Shown piece by piece: positions 26,408 through 36,807 of a stretch of 64,000 bases of DNA. The notes under the pieces were generated by a model. That model worked only from the letters and a program-made list of their open reading frames with translations. It did not search any database and had not been told where the DNA came from. The stretch covers positions 186,001-250,000 of the forward strand of contig JAGNIV010000001.1 in the NCBI GenBank assembly GCA_018001015.1, read 5' to 3'. Numbering within the stretch: position 1 is the stretch's first letter; every line of letters starts with the position of its first letter. The DNA is from Phenylobacterium sp. (GTDB taxonomy: Bacteria > Pseudomonadota > Alphaproteobacteria > Caulobacterales > Caulobacteraceae). The position numbers and the translations under genes are program-made.

Positions 26408-27691
26408 CTAGCCCTGACCTAGCCGTATCGCCGCCGAACGGGCGTGGGCGGGCAACCCCTCGGCGTCGGCCAGCGCCACGGTGGGCGGTCCCAGGATCGC
26501 GAACGCCGCCTCGTCGCACTTCACGATCGAGGTGCGCTTGATGAAGTCGTACAGCGACAGCCCTGACGAGAACCGCGCCGCCCGGCTGGTGGGCAGGACG
26601 TGGTTGGAGCCGGCCACATAGTCGCCGATCGCCTCCGGCGCATGCCGGCCCAGGAAGATGGCCCCGGCGTGCCGCACGCGGTCGGCCAGAGCCTCCGGCG
26701 CGTCCAGGGCGAACTCGACGTGCTCGGGCGCGATCAGGTTCACCAGGCGCGGCGACTCCTCCAGCGGCGCGATGATCACCGCCCCGTGGTTGCGCAACGA
26801 CACCGTCGCGTCGTCGCGAGTCTCCAGGCTCCCCAGCTGCAGCGCGATCTGCGCCTCGACGGCGTCGGCGAAGGCCTCGTCGTCGGTGATCAGGATCGAC
26901 TGCGCCGCCGGATCGTGTTCGGCCTGGGACAGCAGGTCGGCGGCGATCCAGTCGGGCCGGCTGCCGGCGTCCGACACCACCACGATCTCGGAAGGCCCGG
27001 CCAGGGCGTCGATGCCCACGGTGCCATAGACCCTGCGCTTGGCGGCCGTGACGAAGGCGTTGCCCGGCCCCACGATCTTGTCCACCGGCAGGATCGGTCC
27101 CGCGCCATAGGCCAGGGCGGCGACGGCCTGCGCCCCGCCGACCCGCCAGATCTCGGTGATCCCGGCTTCCTTGGCCGCCGCCAGCACCGCAGGCTGCAGC
27201 CGGCCGGGCGGCGTCACCATGGCGATCCGTTCCACCCCGGCGGCGGCGGCCGGCACGGCGTTCATCAGCACGGTGGAGGGATAGGCGGCGCGGCCGCCGG
27301 GCACATAGATTCCAACGGCCTCCAGCGGCGTCCAGCGCCAGCCCAGTTCGACCCCGGACTCGTCCTTGAACCACTGGTCGGCGGGCCGCTGCCGCTCGTG
27401 ATAGGTGCGGATGCGCCTGGCGGCGAAGGCGATGGCCTCGCGCACCTCGGGCGAACATTGCGCCGCGCCCTCGTCGATCTCCTGCGCCGTGACCCGGATG
27501 TTGTCGGCGCTGACAGTGGCCCGGTCGAATTGGCGGCCAAAGCGCAGCACCGCCTCCAGCCCCTCGGCCCGGACGGCCAGGAGAATGTCGCGGACGAGGA
27601 CGTCGACCTCCTCGGGCGTCTCACGACGTTCATCGACAAAGGCGGCGAAGGCGGCCTCGAAGCTGGGATCGGAAAAACGGAAACGGCGCAT
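26408..27691 (-). CDS. hisD: Histidinol dehydrogenase
   Basis: A 427-residue zinc enzyme for the last two steps of histidine synthesis (histidinol to histidine, two NAD+). Clear motifs are YVPGGRAAYPSTVLMNAVPA, AGPSEIVVVSD and AEHDPAAQSI, with metal-ligand His in GSNHVLPT. Length is standard. It sits 42 nt after DUF2948 on the same strand, a pairing common in alphaproteobacteria. Confidence 0.97.
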   Translation of the reverse strand: MRRFRFSDPSFEAAFAAFVDERRETPEEVDVLVRDILLAVRAEGLEAVLRFGRQFDRATVSADNIRVTAQEIDEGAAQCSPEVREAIAFAARRIRTYHERQRPADQWFKDESGVELGWRWTPLEAVGIYVPGGRAAYPSTVLMNAVPAAAAGVERIAMVTPPGRLQPAVLAAAKEAGITEIWRVGGAQAVAALAYGAGPILPVDKIVGPGNAFVTAAKRRVYGTVGIDALAGPSEIVVVSDAGSRPDWIAADLLSQAEHDPAAQSILITDDEAFADAVEAQIALQLGSLETRDDATVSLRNHGAVIIAPLEESPRLVNLIAPEHVEFALDAPEALADRVRHAGAIFLGRHAPEAIGDYVAGSNHVLPTSRAARFSSGLSLYDFIKRTSIVKCDEAAFAILGPPTVALADAEGLPAHARSAAIRLGQG

Positions 27692-28639: not shown

Positions 28640-28834
28640 TCAAGGTCGGGCCGTTTCAGGCTTGCAGGCCAGCACGGCTGTTCCTCCCGTCACTTGATCG
28701 CGAATAGCCTGCCGTCCGGCCTCGGAAAGCGTCCCACAATAGAGATCGACGCCGAGCTTGAGTCCCTGTTGCGGCGTCATCCCCGCACAGCCGCAAAGCG
28801 TCACGGCCGCCAAGGCCACGAGAATTGTCTTCAT
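28640..28834 (-). CDS. Small predicted lipoprotein
   Basis: A 64-residue protein with a lipoprotein signal: MKTILVALAAVTLCGC, where LCGC is an acceptable lipobox with the modified Cys at 14 or 16. The mature part contains LYCGTLSEAGRQAIRDQVT and two further cysteines. AGGAA lies before the ATG. No family name is recognised. Confidence 0.6.
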   Translation of the reverse strand: MKTILVALAAVTLCGCAGMTPQQGLKLGVDLYCGTLSEAGRQAIRDQVTGGTAVLACKPETARP

Positions 28835-28911
28835 CGATCATTCCTGAGGTTGCGAGCGATCGTCGCTCATATATACATCCGGGTAATATTCATGAGCCGA
28901 CGAGACGCCGG

Positions 28912-29223
28912 ATGGACCAGCCCGCCACCTTCACCGCCTTCGCCGGCCACCAGGGCCTGGCCACCGGTCCCCTTCAGGCGGTCGCCGTCGCCGCGAAGGC
29001 CGCGCACGACCAGGCTCAGGAGCCGATCCTGGTCTTCGACGACGCCACGGGCCGCACGGTGGAGCTGGATTTCCGAGGCTCGCCCGAAGACGTCCTGGCG
29101 CGGCTTTCCACCACCGACTCGCCGCCCAAGCCGGGCCGCGGACGCCCCAAGCTCGGCGTCACCGCCCGCGAGGTGACCCTGCTCCCCCGCCGAAACTGCG
29201 CGACGCCGTCAAGAACAAAATAG
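28912..29223 (+). pseudogene. Truncated DUF2239 family protein
   Basis: The first about 95 residues follow DUF2239 closely (FTAFAGHQGLATGPL, then ILVFDDATGRTVELDFRG and GRGRPKLGVTAREVTLLPR). The frame then departs into CATPSRTK and stops at 103 residues, where intact members run to about 190-200. The expected tryptophan-rich second half is not found in any frame downstream, so a deletion rather than a simple frameshift is likely. It may be non-functional. Confidence 0.65.
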
Positions 29224-29256
29224 GAACATTTGAGGCCTGACGATCCTCTCAAATCC

Positions 29257-29383
29257 GCTCATCCCGGCGACCCGTAGGGCGGCGCGAAGCAGTCAAGGCC
29301 GGGACCCAGATTCATCAGCAGCCTTCAGGATCATCGCGCGGGTTGTGACCTCCGACCTGGATCCCGGCCTTCGCCGGGACGAG
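29257..29383. repeat. CATCCCGGC/GCCGGGA intergenic repeat, degenerate copy
   Basis: TCATCCCGGC at 29259 and ATCCCGGCcttcGCCGGGA at about 29361-29379 belong to the same hairpin family seen at 33613, 55497 and 58778. The 252-bp gap before the SDR gene is mostly this repeat. Confidence 0.5.
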
Positions 29384-29475
29384 CGGTGGGCTTGGCGTCA
29401 CCGCCCCCATTGCCTTGCCTCCCGCCCCGCCCTACCCCTGCCGCCAACAAGACACAGCGGGACGGAGACCAAGCC

Positions 29476-30261
29476 ATGGACGTGAAGGGCAAGATCGTTG
29501 TCGTGACCGGCGCCGCCGAGGGGATCGGCGCGGCGCTCGCCCGACGCTTCGCCGCCGAGGGCGCGGCCCACGTCGCCGTCGTCGACCGCAACGCCGAGGG
29601 CGCGAAAGCCGTCGCCGCCGAGATCGGCGGGACCGCCTATACCGTCGACGTGTCCGACGGCGCCCAGGTCGCCGCCATGGTGGCCGCCGTCGAGGCCGCC
29701 CACGGCGCCATCGACCTCTTCTGCGCCAATGCCGGCGTCGGCGACGGCGATCCGGACCGCGAGAACGCGGTCTCCTCCCCCGACGCCGTCTGGGCCCGCG
29801 CCTGGGGGGTCAATGTCATGGCCCACGTCCACGCCGCCCGCGCCGTCCTGCCCGGCATGATCGCCCGCGGCGAAGGCTACCTGCTCAACACCGTCTCAGC
29901 GGCGGGCCTGCTGTCGCAGATCGGCGGCGCGGTCTATTCGACCACCAAGCACGCCGCCGTCGGCCTCGCCGAAAGCCTCGCCATCACCCACGGCGACCAG
30001 GGCATCAAGGTCTCCATCCTCTGCCCGCAAGGCGTCGACACCGCCATGCTGCGGGCCGGCGGCTCCGGCTCCCCCCAGAGCCTGGACGGCGTGCTGACCC
30101 CCGACGAAGTCGCCGGCCACGTGGTCGAGGGCCTGGCCGCCGAACGCTTCCTGATCCTGCCGCACCCCGAGGTGCTGACCTACATGCAGCGCAAGACCGC
30201 CGACTACGACCGCTGGCTCGGCGGCATGCGCCGCCTGCGGGCCAAGGTGATGGGCCGCTGA
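29476..30261 (+). CDS. Short-chain dehydrogenase/reductase
   Basis: A 261-residue classical SDR with the NAD(P)-binding TGAAEGIG at residues 11-18, a CANAGVG (NAG) motif near 87, catalytic Ser in TVSAAG and YSTTK (Tyr/Lys) near 155. The cofactor is probably NAD(H), given VVDRNAEGA after strand 2 (acidic D). Substrate unknown. ATG at 29476 lies just before the Rossmann fold. Single gene with a strong bidirectional terminator after it. Confidence 0.88.
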   Translation: MDVKGKIVVVTGAAEGIGAALARRFAAEGAAHVAVVDRNAEGAKAVAAEIGGTAYTVDVSDGAQVAAMVAAVEAAHGAIDLFCANAGVGDGDPDRENAVSSPDAVWARAWGVNVMAHVHAARAVLPGMIARGEGYLLNTVSAAGLLSQIGGAVYSTTKHAAVGLAESLAITHGDQGIKVSILCPQGVDTAMLRAGGSGSPQSLDGVLTPDEVAGHVVEGLAAERFLILPHPEVLTYMQRKTADYDRWLGGMRRLRAKVMGR

Positions 30262-34644: not shown

Positions 34645-35223
34645 TCACGACCCCTGTGCGGCGCCCTCCTGCGCCAGCAGGTCCAGGGCCACCTCCAGCA
34701 CCGCCTCCAGCCGCCCGGCCTCGCGGTCGGTGCGGGCCGCCTCCCGGGGGGTCAACTCCTGGCCGCAGACCAGGTCGCAGGCGGCCAGCAGGGTCGGATG
34801 CTGGTGCAGCTTGCGCCGATAGAGGGCGAGCTTGGCCGCCGCCGCCATCCGCGCCTCGGCCTGGGCCAGCACCTCGGTCAGCGGCGTCCCCTGCGGATTG
34901 TCGCCGTGCTTGATGTCCAGGCTCGAGCCGAGCGCCATCCCGGCCTCCGCCCGCCGGTAATAGGTCCCGTAACGTTCGCCCGCCTGCTTCTGCTGGTCGT
35001 TCAGCCGCCCCTGCCGGGCCAGCCATTCCAGCCCGGCCTGCCGCCGATGCGGCTTGCGCGGCGTGGCCGGCGCCTCCATGGCCGCCCCGCGCGCCTGCGA
35101 CAGGGCCACCGTCTCGGCGATCCCCTGTGTGACCGCCAGGGCCTCGGCGCGGGCCCGGCCCCGCCGCTCCAGGATCAGCAGACGCTCGCGCTCCAGGCGC
35201 GCCAGATGGGCCGTACGGCTCAT
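34645..35223 (-). CDS. DUF6456-like protein (possible GafZ-type regulator)
   Basis: A 192-residue protein. Residues about 60-85 (RRQAGLEWLARQG, then QQKQAGERYGTYYRRAE) and 145-185 (ACDLVCGQELT, then EAVLEVALDLLA) follow the spacing of the DUF6456 domain. DUF6456 occurs in GafA/GafZ, activators of gene transfer agents in alphaproteobacteria, and in phage-like proteins. It is the second gene after a 104-residue gene, downstream of two operators and opposite an S24 repressor. The family link is by eye, so the regulator role is an inference. Confidence 0.6.
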   Translation of the reverse strand: MSRTAHLARLERERLLILERRGRARAEALAVTQGIAETVALSQARGAAMEAPATPRKPHRRQAGLEWLARQGRLNDQQKQAGERYGTYYRRAEAGMALGSSLDIKHGDNPQGTPLTEVLAQAEARMAAAAKLALYRRKLHQHPTLLAACDLVCGQELTPREAARTDREAGRLEAVLEVALDLLAQEGAAQGS

Positions 35224-35258
35224 GCGCGGAAACTCCCAAATGATGTGGTGAAGGGGCT

Positions 35259-35555
35259 TCAGCCCTTGGGGGGCGCGATCATCGGCAGGCAGACCGCCAC
35301 GCCATCGCGCCCGATCCGGCGCTCGGAGAAGGCCCAGAACCCGCCCGCCGCCAGCACGGCGGCCACATGGGCGTCGTGCCGCGCGAACTTCGGCAGCTGG
35401 CTGTCGCCCCGCCCCCGCGACGTCCGCGCCTGGAACAGCTTCTCAAGCCGCCTGGCCCGCCAGTCCTCCAGGCCCAGCTGGGTCCTGGCGCGGAGCGGCG
35501 ACGTCCCACTTTGACGTAGGGCCGCGTAATCTTGCCCGTCGGCGGGCCTTGGCAT
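35259..35555 (-). CDS. Small protein at the head of the repressor-controlled operon
   Basis: About 98 residues (104 if ATG at 35573 is used) with a basic RARTQLGLEDWRARRLEKLF helix and a C-terminal HDAHVAAVLAAGGFWAF segment. No family is recognised; small phage-type regulators and a GafY-like partner of the next gene are both possible. The ATG at 35555 has GGGAA upstream, while the earlier ATG lies only 8 nt from an operator and has no ribosome site. It lies 35 nt before the DUF6456-like gene on the same strand. Confidence 0.6.
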   Translation of the reverse strand: MPRPADGQDYAALRQSGTSPLRARTQLGLEDWRARRLEKLFQARTSRGRGDSQLPKFARHDAHVAAVLAAGGFWAFSERRIGRDGVAVCLPMIAPPKG

Positions 35556-35580
35556 GGCGTTTTCCCGTTGCATTCGCAGA

Positions 35581-35597
35581 CTGTACGGAACATACAG
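35581..35597. promoter_or_regulatory. Operator 1, CTGTA-N7-TACAG
   Basis: CTGTA and TACAG are exact inverted half-sites separated by 7 bp, next to the start of the minus-strand operon. The same half-site spacing recurs at 35616-35632 and 36355-36371. Likely bound by the S24 repressor encoded at 35657. Confidence 0.7.
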
Positions 35598-35615
35598 GGA
35601 ACGGGCAAGATGAAT

Positions 35616-35632
35616 CTGTATTTTCTGTACAG
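35616..35632. promoter_or_regulatory. Operator 2, CTGTA-N7-TACAG
   Basis: Identical half-sites and spacing to operator 1. The centres are 35 bp apart. It lies 24 bp before the repressor ATG, so it can give autorepression. A further single CTGTA half-site is at 35641-35645. Confidence 0.7.
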
Positions 35633-35656
35633 ACTTTCCACTGTAGGTTTCAGGCC

Positions 35657-36298
35657 ATGGACGAACGCTTCCAACGCCTGCGCGTCGCGCGCACCGAAAA
35701 GGGCTTCGAGACCGCCGCCGCGGCGGCCGAGGCCTTCGGCTGGAACCGCAACACCTACGCCTCCAACGAGAACGGCAACGCCGCCTTCTCCTACCGCAAG
35801 GCCAAGGAGTACGCCGCGGCCTTCGAGGTCCGCCCGGAGTGGCTGTATGACGCCTCGGGCGCCATGCGGCCGGGCGCCGGTCCGGGCCTGGTCAAGGTGA
35901 TCGGCAGGGTGGGCGCCAACCCCGAGGGAACCATCCTCTTCGCCACCGGCCAGGAGGCCGACGATCTGGCCCCGATCCCGCCTGGGGGAACGGAAAACGC
36001 CGTCGCCGTCCAGGTCTCCGGCCACTCCATGCGCGGCCTCGCCGACGACGGTGCGCTGATTTATTTTGAAGACCAAAGGACGCCGCCCACCCCCGACATG
36101 CTGGGTCACGTCGTCGTGGTGGAGACCGACACCGACGAGGTGCTGGTCAAGCGCCTGCTGCGCGGCAGCGAGCCGGGCCGTTTCGACCTGGAGAGCCTGG
36201 CCGGCCCCACCCGTCACGACGCCCGCCTGCGCTGGGCCGCCCACATCACCGCCATCATCCCGCCCTACCAGGCCCGGCGGATCATCATCCGCGGCTAG
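35657..36298 (+). CDS. XRE-family repressor with LexA/CI-like S24 peptidase domain
   Basis: A 213-residue repressor. An N-terminal XRE helix-turn-helix (about residues 1-60) is followed by a peptidase S24 domain with the Ser-Lys dyad retained: S124 in VSGHSMRG and K165 in EVLVKRLL. This suggests it can self-cleave or at least keep the CI/LexA dimer fold; a clear Ala-Gly cleavage site is not obvious around GRVGANP. Two palindromic operators lie in its divergent promoter. The layout resembles RogA, which represses gafYZ in Caulobacter crescentus. ATG at 35657 starts the HTH; upstream codons are not conserved. Confidence 0.82.
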   Translation: MDERFQRLRVARTEKGFETAAAAAEAFGWNRNTYASNENGNAAFSYRKAKEYAAAFEVRPEWLYDASGAMRPGAGPGLVKVIGRVGANPEGTILFATGQEADDLAPIPPGGTENAVAVQVSGHSMRGLADDGALIYFEDQRTPPTPDMLGHVVVVETDTDEVLVKRLLRGSEPGRFDLESLAGPTRHDARLRWAAHITAIIPPYQARRIIIRG

Positions 36299-36354
36299 CT
36301 CGCCTTCAGGTGGTTCGCCTCGGTCAGAAATCTCAGATTCGCCTTGGCGAATAA

Positions 36355-36371
36355 ATGTATGTTTTATACAT
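36355..36371. promoter_or_regulatory. Operator 3, ATGTA-N7-TACAT
   Basis: Shares the TGTA-N7-TACA core with operators 1 and 2 and ends 7 bp before the ATG at 36379. It therefore probably blocks expression of the small gene that follows. Confidence 0.6.
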
Positions 36372-36378
36372 TTTCTCG

Positions 36379-36807
36379 ATGGAAACGCACGATCCCGATC
36401 TCATCGACCTGCTGATCGCCGAGCGCGCCGGGGATCAGGCCCGGATGGTCTGGCGCGCGCGGGAGGCCCGCCGCGCCGCCGGCGTCGCCTGGTCGGGCAT
36501 GGCGCCCCCACCCTGCCCGCCGCCGCGCACGGAGCCAGAACGCCTGACCGCCGCCCGTGCCAAACTCGCCGCCCGACGCCGGTGGCGCGGCAGCGCCCAG
36601 GGCCGGTTCGTCGGTGCGGTGGCTCAGGTCCAGGCAGCGGCGCGGGACCTCCATGCCGGCGGCGAACGCGCCCGCGAAGCCGCCGCCCGCGGCTTTCAGG
36701 ATGAGCGCGAGACCTGCGAGGCCATCGCCCGCGACCTGCGCCGCCAGACCCTGGGCCTGATCGCCGGCGTCCGCGCCGCGCGCCGGGCGGTTCGAGATCT
36801 GAGCTAA
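36379..36807 (+). CDS. Hypothetical protein with a repressor-type operator at its start
   Basis: A 142-residue basic, Arg/Ala-rich, mostly helical protein (RARLEAR-like segments, GERAREAAARGFQDERETCEA). No domain is recognised and there is no signal or membrane segment. The matching operator immediately upstream suggests it belongs to the S24 repressor regulon. The start at 36379 is preferred over a codon at 36355 that lies inside the palindrome. Confidence 0.6.
   Translation: METHDPDLIDLLIAERAGDQARMVWRAREARRAAGVAWSGMAPPPCPPPRTEPERLTAARAKLAARRRWRGSAQGRFVGAVAQVQAAARDLHAGGERAREAAARGFQDERETCEAIARDLRRQTLGLIAGVRAARRAVRDLS

Follow-up and report, generated by a model that had tools for sequence, protein, structure and literature searches.

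What does a phage-type repressor switch control in a bacterial genome that holds no phage-type genes beside it? The question is raised by a compact module at positions 34645 to 36807 of a 64,000-nucleotide stretch of a Phenylobacterium sp. genome (assembly GCA_018001015.1, contig JAGNIV010000001.1, positions 186,001 to 250,000), hereafter called the window, in whose positions all coordinates are given. A first-pass annotation, made from the letters alone, had proposed a control module of gene transfer agent (GTA) or phage type. Having compared the locus with 299 Caulobacteraceae genomes, drawn evenly from a larger family and including 73 of the genus Phenylobacterium, we consider it likely (probability roughly 70%) that the module is an orphaned switch, left from a P22-type, GTA-like Phenylobacterium element of largely vertical inheritance, the particle genes of which have been deleted here. 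Judged from sequence, the unit looks phage-derived, and the GTA idea holds in kind for the relatives, in which a GTA-like particle cluster adjoins the module; it does not hold as proposed for the window's own genome, from which this cluster is missing.

In the window, a repressor of the XRE-S24 type (35657..36298, plus strand, 213 residues) is divergent from a two-gene unit on the minus strand, which consists of p98 (35259..35555, 98 residues) and p192 (34645..35223, 192 residues). A fourth gene, p142 (36379..36807, plus strand), lies inside the span up to 36807 and was absent from the first-pass annotation. The layout is not due to chance, because repressor, p98 and p192 were found together in 20 of the 20 best-scoring loci (own copy included) from 62 positive genomes. 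These 62 carriers of p192 relatives, out of the 299 genomes, include 50 of the 73 from the genus (49 without a weak match in G268, E 1.4e-4). Among 54 named loci, with genes in relatives called by a simple caller based on third-position GC content (GC3), the repressor was present in 52 and p98 in 51, the loci without one of them including a contig end. A third small gene, for which no family over cut-off was found, sits between p98 and p192 in 45 of these loci and is absent from the window.

In the relatives, the module is usually located upstream of a compact phage-derived cluster on the same strand. Genome G238 has terL, portal, scaffold, coat and adaptor genes behind the module, along with other virion-like genes; 10 of 11 query genes fall within 10.7 kb, and host genes come next. 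Lysis genes also belong to the cluster in relatives. Pfam matches include P22_portal (6.6e-194), P22_CoatProtein (8.1e-38), SU10_adaptor (7.5e-26) and, in G172, an Sf6-type small terminase (1.4e-20). PHROG families identify portal, major head and virion proteins, together with scaffold and endolysin in G026 and spanin in G026 and G084. The terL of G238 has no Pfam match and a single PHROG match, of unknown function and over the C-terminal half, and its name therefore rests on position and inspection; v137, v333 and tf243 gave no informative family match. The portal, coat and Sf6-like small terminase families are shared with P22-like podophages, but the closest portal from a named phage shares 49% identity, and none of the 260 matching phage records reaches 60%. 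A further difference from these phages is that no integrase or replication protein was found among the scanned cluster proteins, which cover part of the open frames and G238 best; the sole mobile-gene signal was a sub-threshold match to a transposase model (E 0.012). The relatives, as far as scanned, but not the window's genome, thus combine packaging and structural genes with a lack of integration and replication genes, a criterion for GTAs. In several genomes, unrelated genes are interspersed among the structural genes, and in G132 a toxin-antitoxin-like pair (RelE- and Phd-like by inspection) adjoins the small terminase gene (L210:9009-9526).

The cluster occupies a fixed site. Both of its ends were examined in 10 genomes, chosen from the 42 of the genus with terL. 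All have 9-11 of the 11 structural genes on one strand, and at the far end every one of the 10 clusters is bordered by DUF2948 and hisD-like genes. The strand of p192 agrees with that of the structural genes in all nine genomes in which p192 is in range; in G103, the module is 1.3 Mb away from the cluster. The window contains the flanks of this site without the cluster. A hisD-like gene (26408..27691, minus strand, by inspection), the far-flank marker of the 10 relatives, is followed by a DUF2239-type gene (28825..29223, plus strand), a cluster flank in relatives, and by an SDR-like gene (29386..30261, plus strand, by inspection) on the other side of the empty site. In the close relative G132, all 11 cluster genes lie between the DUF2239-type and SDR-like genes, and the two matches are 16.8 kb apart, versus 195 bp in the window. 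Flank comparison puts the position of the G132 cluster at the junction 29224..29385, and none of the structural genes matches the window (best E 0.14).

The junction itself is informative. The DUF2239-type gene of the window matches only in its first half (residues 4-90 of 176), and in the empty relatives G156, G123 and G175 the match is likewise confined to residues 1-89, 1-89 and 4-63, so that the half facing the lost cluster is missing; the empty G214 keeps the gene whole. Among eight terL-bearing genomes with the gene, it is nearly full length in six and lacks the opposite end in G103 and G084. Altogether, six empty sites were found among 25 genomes compared at the cluster flanks. Losses must have been repeated, or G132 must have regained the cluster, because the host tree groups G132 with G175 (support 87). 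By these sequence signs, the absence of particle genes from the window looks like a deletion that left the switch in place.

At E<=1e-10, terL was found in 50 of the 299 genomes and in 42 of the 73 from the genus, and portal in 39 and 34, respectively, some of them as fragments; the window's genome has no match to either. In 32 of the 54 named loci, terL is within the available flank. It is present in 39 of 49 genus genomes with p192 versus 3 of 24 without (G268 excluded; Fisher test 7e-8, relatedness ignored). As candidate target of the switch we also considered an HK97-type capsid cluster, which was rejected: HK97 capsids at E<=0.001 occur in 6 of 80 genus genomes, with no match in the window's own. 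The view that the module is a stand-alone regulator acting in trans on GTA or phage genes is unsupported: searches of its own genome gave no match to terL, portal, HK97 capsid or RcGTA gp10.

Related portals, with identities of up to 74%, occur in 229 IMG/VR stretches. Among 80 of these (L298-L377), five have p192 and three the repressor within the available flank, so that some of the stretches are this bacterial cluster filed as virus. One of them, L316 (IMG/VR record 2571042909, to judge by its IMG-style number from an isolate), has the cluster next to the switch and spans repressor to v333. In the literature on gene transfer agents and Phenylobacterium prophages, the titles and abstract starts among the matches listed contained no description of the element.

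Selection was assessed in close pairs by the ratio of non-synonymous to synonymous substitution rates (dN/dS, NG86 method, no codon-bias correction). Structural genes gave values of 0.07-0.33, except for v203 (0.54) and g79 (0.53) in one pair each, and host genes 0-0.22. Within the module, we obtained 0.03-0.15 for the repressor (0.03-0.11 in window-clade pairs), 0.15-0.32 for p192 (0.21-0.32 in window-clade pairs), 0.11-0.29 for p98 and 0.26-0.50 for p142. Host and structural trees of 10 taxa have 3 of 7 splits in common, a number attained in 7 of 2000 label shuffles; one conflict is well supported (G187 with G026 versus G187 with G298). The constant far flank and mostly low dN/dS speak for vertical inheritance, but less than half of the splits are common; the data fit vertical descent with some exchange, and strict co-descent is beyond them.

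The repressor matches Peptidase_S24 over cut-off (E 2.8e-6), helix-turn-helix families below their cut-offs, and the phage repressor family phrog_4 (E 5.7e-20). Its Ser-Lys dyad (S124, K165), typical of self-cleaving repressors of the LexA/CI type, was correctly noted in the first pass, as was its divergent orientation. Such repressors are cleaved at Ala-Gly (or Cys-Gly); at the corresponding position, the window protein has Ala-Asn (GRVGAN, from residue 83). VGAN or VGAD is found in 29 of 30 repressor rows, which include the window copy and a few repeated loci, the exception being VSAG in the distant L047. A gene starting with MCNEF or MCNEY is located downstream of the repressor in L017, L018, L019 and L048. 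This start resembles that of SOS-response-associated peptidases, and a link to DNA damage is possible.

The divergent promoter carries the palindrome TGTA-N7-TACA, extended to CTGTA-N7-TACAG, twice. Operator 1 (TGTACGGAACATACA, 35582..35596) and operator 2 (TGTATTTTCTGTACA, 35617..35631), both predicted by site search, are 35 bp apart, as in relatives, and operator 3 (TGTATGTTTTATACA, 36356..36370) lies directly upstream of p142. In 51 named loci with both gene starts placeable, an exact pair at a distance of 34-36 bp was present in 26, and a pair with at most one mismatch per site in 37; 200 shuffles, preserving base composition only, produced none. Of the six such sites in the window's genome, three belong to the module, one, which is operator-like, is on contig C64, and two lie elsewhere. 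Of the latter, TGTAGGAGTGGTACA on C34 was rejected as an operator and put down to coding chance, since it is internal to a long open frame and has similar counterparts in relatives; C5:155587 was set aside, with no membrane-protein gene of the C64 kind (see below) adjoining.

The partner genes are poorly connected to known families. The first-pass annotation had left p98 unrecognised (in a 104-residue version, obtained with the alternative start at 35573), and it has stayed so: profile library scans gave no family match, and a tri-helical helix-turn-helix is predicted for residues 7-47. The fast-evolving p142 behind operator 3 has no functional assignment; profile library scans found no family over cut-off and only sub-threshold WXG100 matches, and a match to a transposase model (E 0.17) was judged to be chance. 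For p192, we found no Pfam match, a single PHROG match (phrog_21451, unknown function, E 1e-4) and no counterpart in named phage records, where the distant homologue L038 has one weak match. Foldseek comparison of the p192 and p98 models with the PDB gave no significant match for either, and the best matches of their profiles to PDB sequences (E 1 and 0.17) were dismissed as chance.

The proposal that p192 resembles DUF6456 proteins could be upheld only as distant homology. When a profile of 49 p192-type sequences was aligned by hhalign with one of 24 GafZ sequences (L058, one of 25 GafZ loci, was missed by the search pattern), probability was 93.3, P 2.6e-7 and score 49.1, compared with scores of 11.0-15.4 for nine controls (one reversed, eight shuffled); sequence subsets gave probabilities of 88.2 and 80.2. 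Proteins at the p192 position in G277 and G166 match DUF6456 below cut-off (E 0.002 and 0.018), and DUF6456 (PF20057) is over the Pfam cut-off in 1 of 80 genus genomes, with no match at E<=0.001 in the window's own. By profile comparison, p192 is thus a distant homologue of the DUF6456/GafZ domain, below Pfam detection. No such relationship was detected for p98: against seven DnaA-like upstream neighbours of GafZ the hhalign probability was 0.1, and p98 as a GafY homologue is unsupported. For residues 80-190 of the p192 model, the best re-aligned fold is a chain of AlpA complexes; from Q and AlpA, the processive antiterminators, p192 differs in showing no sequence similarity to any solved structure. 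The GafZ paper, in the part considered here, likewise reports no similarity between GafZ and known antiterminators.

These features suggest how the switch may work. The repressor would keep both divergent promoters, its own and that of p98-p192, closed at operators 1 and 2, and p142 at operator 3, as the positions of the sites imply. Upon its inactivation, p98 and p192 would be made, and p192, as a putative late-gene activator or antiterminator of GafZ/Q-like type, would act on RNA polymerase near a late promoter, perhaps with the help of p98. In relatives, transcription could then continue through the terminase, portal, coat and lysis genes, which follow on the same strand. In the window's genome, derepression is expected to reach only p98, p192, p142 and the membrane-protein gene on C64, because the particle genes are gone.

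This last gene (L109:4252-4425, minus strand, 57 residues, one probable helix) lies behind an operator of the same type and near two serine recombinase genes (domains checked for one) and a Phd-like antitoxin gene (by inspection). In the window's genome and four relatives, an off-module site starts 57-58 bp ahead of the coding sequence of a homologous gene, which encodes a protein of 50-57 residues with one probable membrane helix (by inspection) and no family over cut-off. Homologues at E<=0.01, some weak, occur in 24 of the 73 genus genomes. Seven genomes without p192 (G088, G098, G163, G169, G208, G217 and G262) have a 68-72% identical repressor divergent from the membrane-protein gene, with the exact operator pair in two (G163, G262), one exact site in three and none in two; in G163 and G262, two serine recombinase-like genes follow the repressor (domains checked for one). 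Where matches to the membrane protein are strong, terL is found in 2 of 15 genomes, versus 40 of 58 without them (Fisher test 2e-4, relatedness ignored). In L166, L167 and L159, serine recombinase genes lie behind a repressor relative, which in L166 and L167 faces away from the membrane-protein gene; this may be a mobile element using the same switch.

Such arrangements raise the alternative that repressor, p98, p192 and p142 have been repurposed by the host for other targets, for example the small membrane protein. The operator-like sites that remain at p142 and on C64, the seven genomes that pair repressor and membrane-protein gene, and the constraint on p192 in window-clade pairs are all compatible with this. 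We nevertheless regard it as unlikely, since p192 co-occurs with terL, and constraint may predate the loss, because the close relative G132 retains the cluster.

An ancient defective prophage in decay, with the switch as a fossil lacking any present role, appears more doubtful. The patchy retention of terL and portal in the genus, the fragments, the six empty sites and the elevated dN/dS of v203 and g79 would fit, as would the truncated repressors of G193 and G289 (L163, L158), where p142 and its operator are retained, as in stages of module decay. However, structural genes and repressor are otherwise constrained, sets of 9-11 genes stand at one site in 10 genomes, and operator pairs are conserved.

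A particle that serves for killing or defence, and not as a DNA carrier, is again somewhat less probable, although there is a precedent in PBSX, described in the part of the source considered here as a GTA-like element acting as a tailocin (PMC12946183). The small terminase, portal and scaffold families have been retained under constraint, which suits DNA packaging.

The resemblance to the control of CcGTA in Caulobacter crescentus by RogA, GafY and GafZ, to which the layout had originally been likened, extends to an S24-type repressor over a two-gene activator, the second product of which has a DUF6456-type domain, and to particle genes of phage origin. The proposed RogA-gafYZ layout fails beyond that, on operator, partner and gene order. 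According to the sections of the published report considered here, rogA is CCNA_00080 and gafYZ is CCNA_01111-01112, and the two loci are therefore not adjacent; RogA itself is missing key catalytic residues, and GGAA-N4-TTCC repeats are found in the promoters that it binds (PMC9632790). The module repressor differs in having the dyad and CTGTA-N7-TACAG sites, in a comparison made by published features, with no RogA sequence aligned. In addition, p98 does not match GafY, and the Phenylobacterium particle is P22-type, not RcGTA-type. That the module regulates an RcGTA-type element located elsewhere in its genome, in the manner of RogA-GafYZ, is therefore very improbable: despite the distant p192-GafZ homology, such a target in trans was rejected, as the genome has neither gp10 (PF11836; present in 3 of 80 genus genomes, in two of them over cut-off) nor Pfam-level DUF6456, which contradicts the idea unless the assembly lacks the cluster.

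The well-studied GTAs of Alphaproteobacteria are mostly of the RcGTA type. We tentatively propose, at somewhat less than even odds, that the Phenylobacterium element is a new short-tailed P22-like GTA, independent of RcGTA, with its own repressor and a GafZ/AlpA-related antiterminator; that DUF6456, p192 and AlpA share one fold; and that recombinase elements encoding the small membrane protein share this operator and are found preferentially where the particle has been lost. FpGTA of Faecalibacterium, as presented in the portion of its source considered here, differs in its Firmicute host and in particles seen by microscopy and proteomics, whereas here a particle is predicted from genes. The distant link from p192 to GafZ, and perhaps to AlpA, could serve as a structural model for how GafZ-type proteins work. 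If the proposal is true, a genus with almost no RcGTA marker would harbour a second, P22-like GTA lineage, and bacteria would have domesticated very different phages for one use, reaching similar control by a repressor over a GafZ-type activator. The window would represent one fate of such elements, loss of the particle with retention of the switch.
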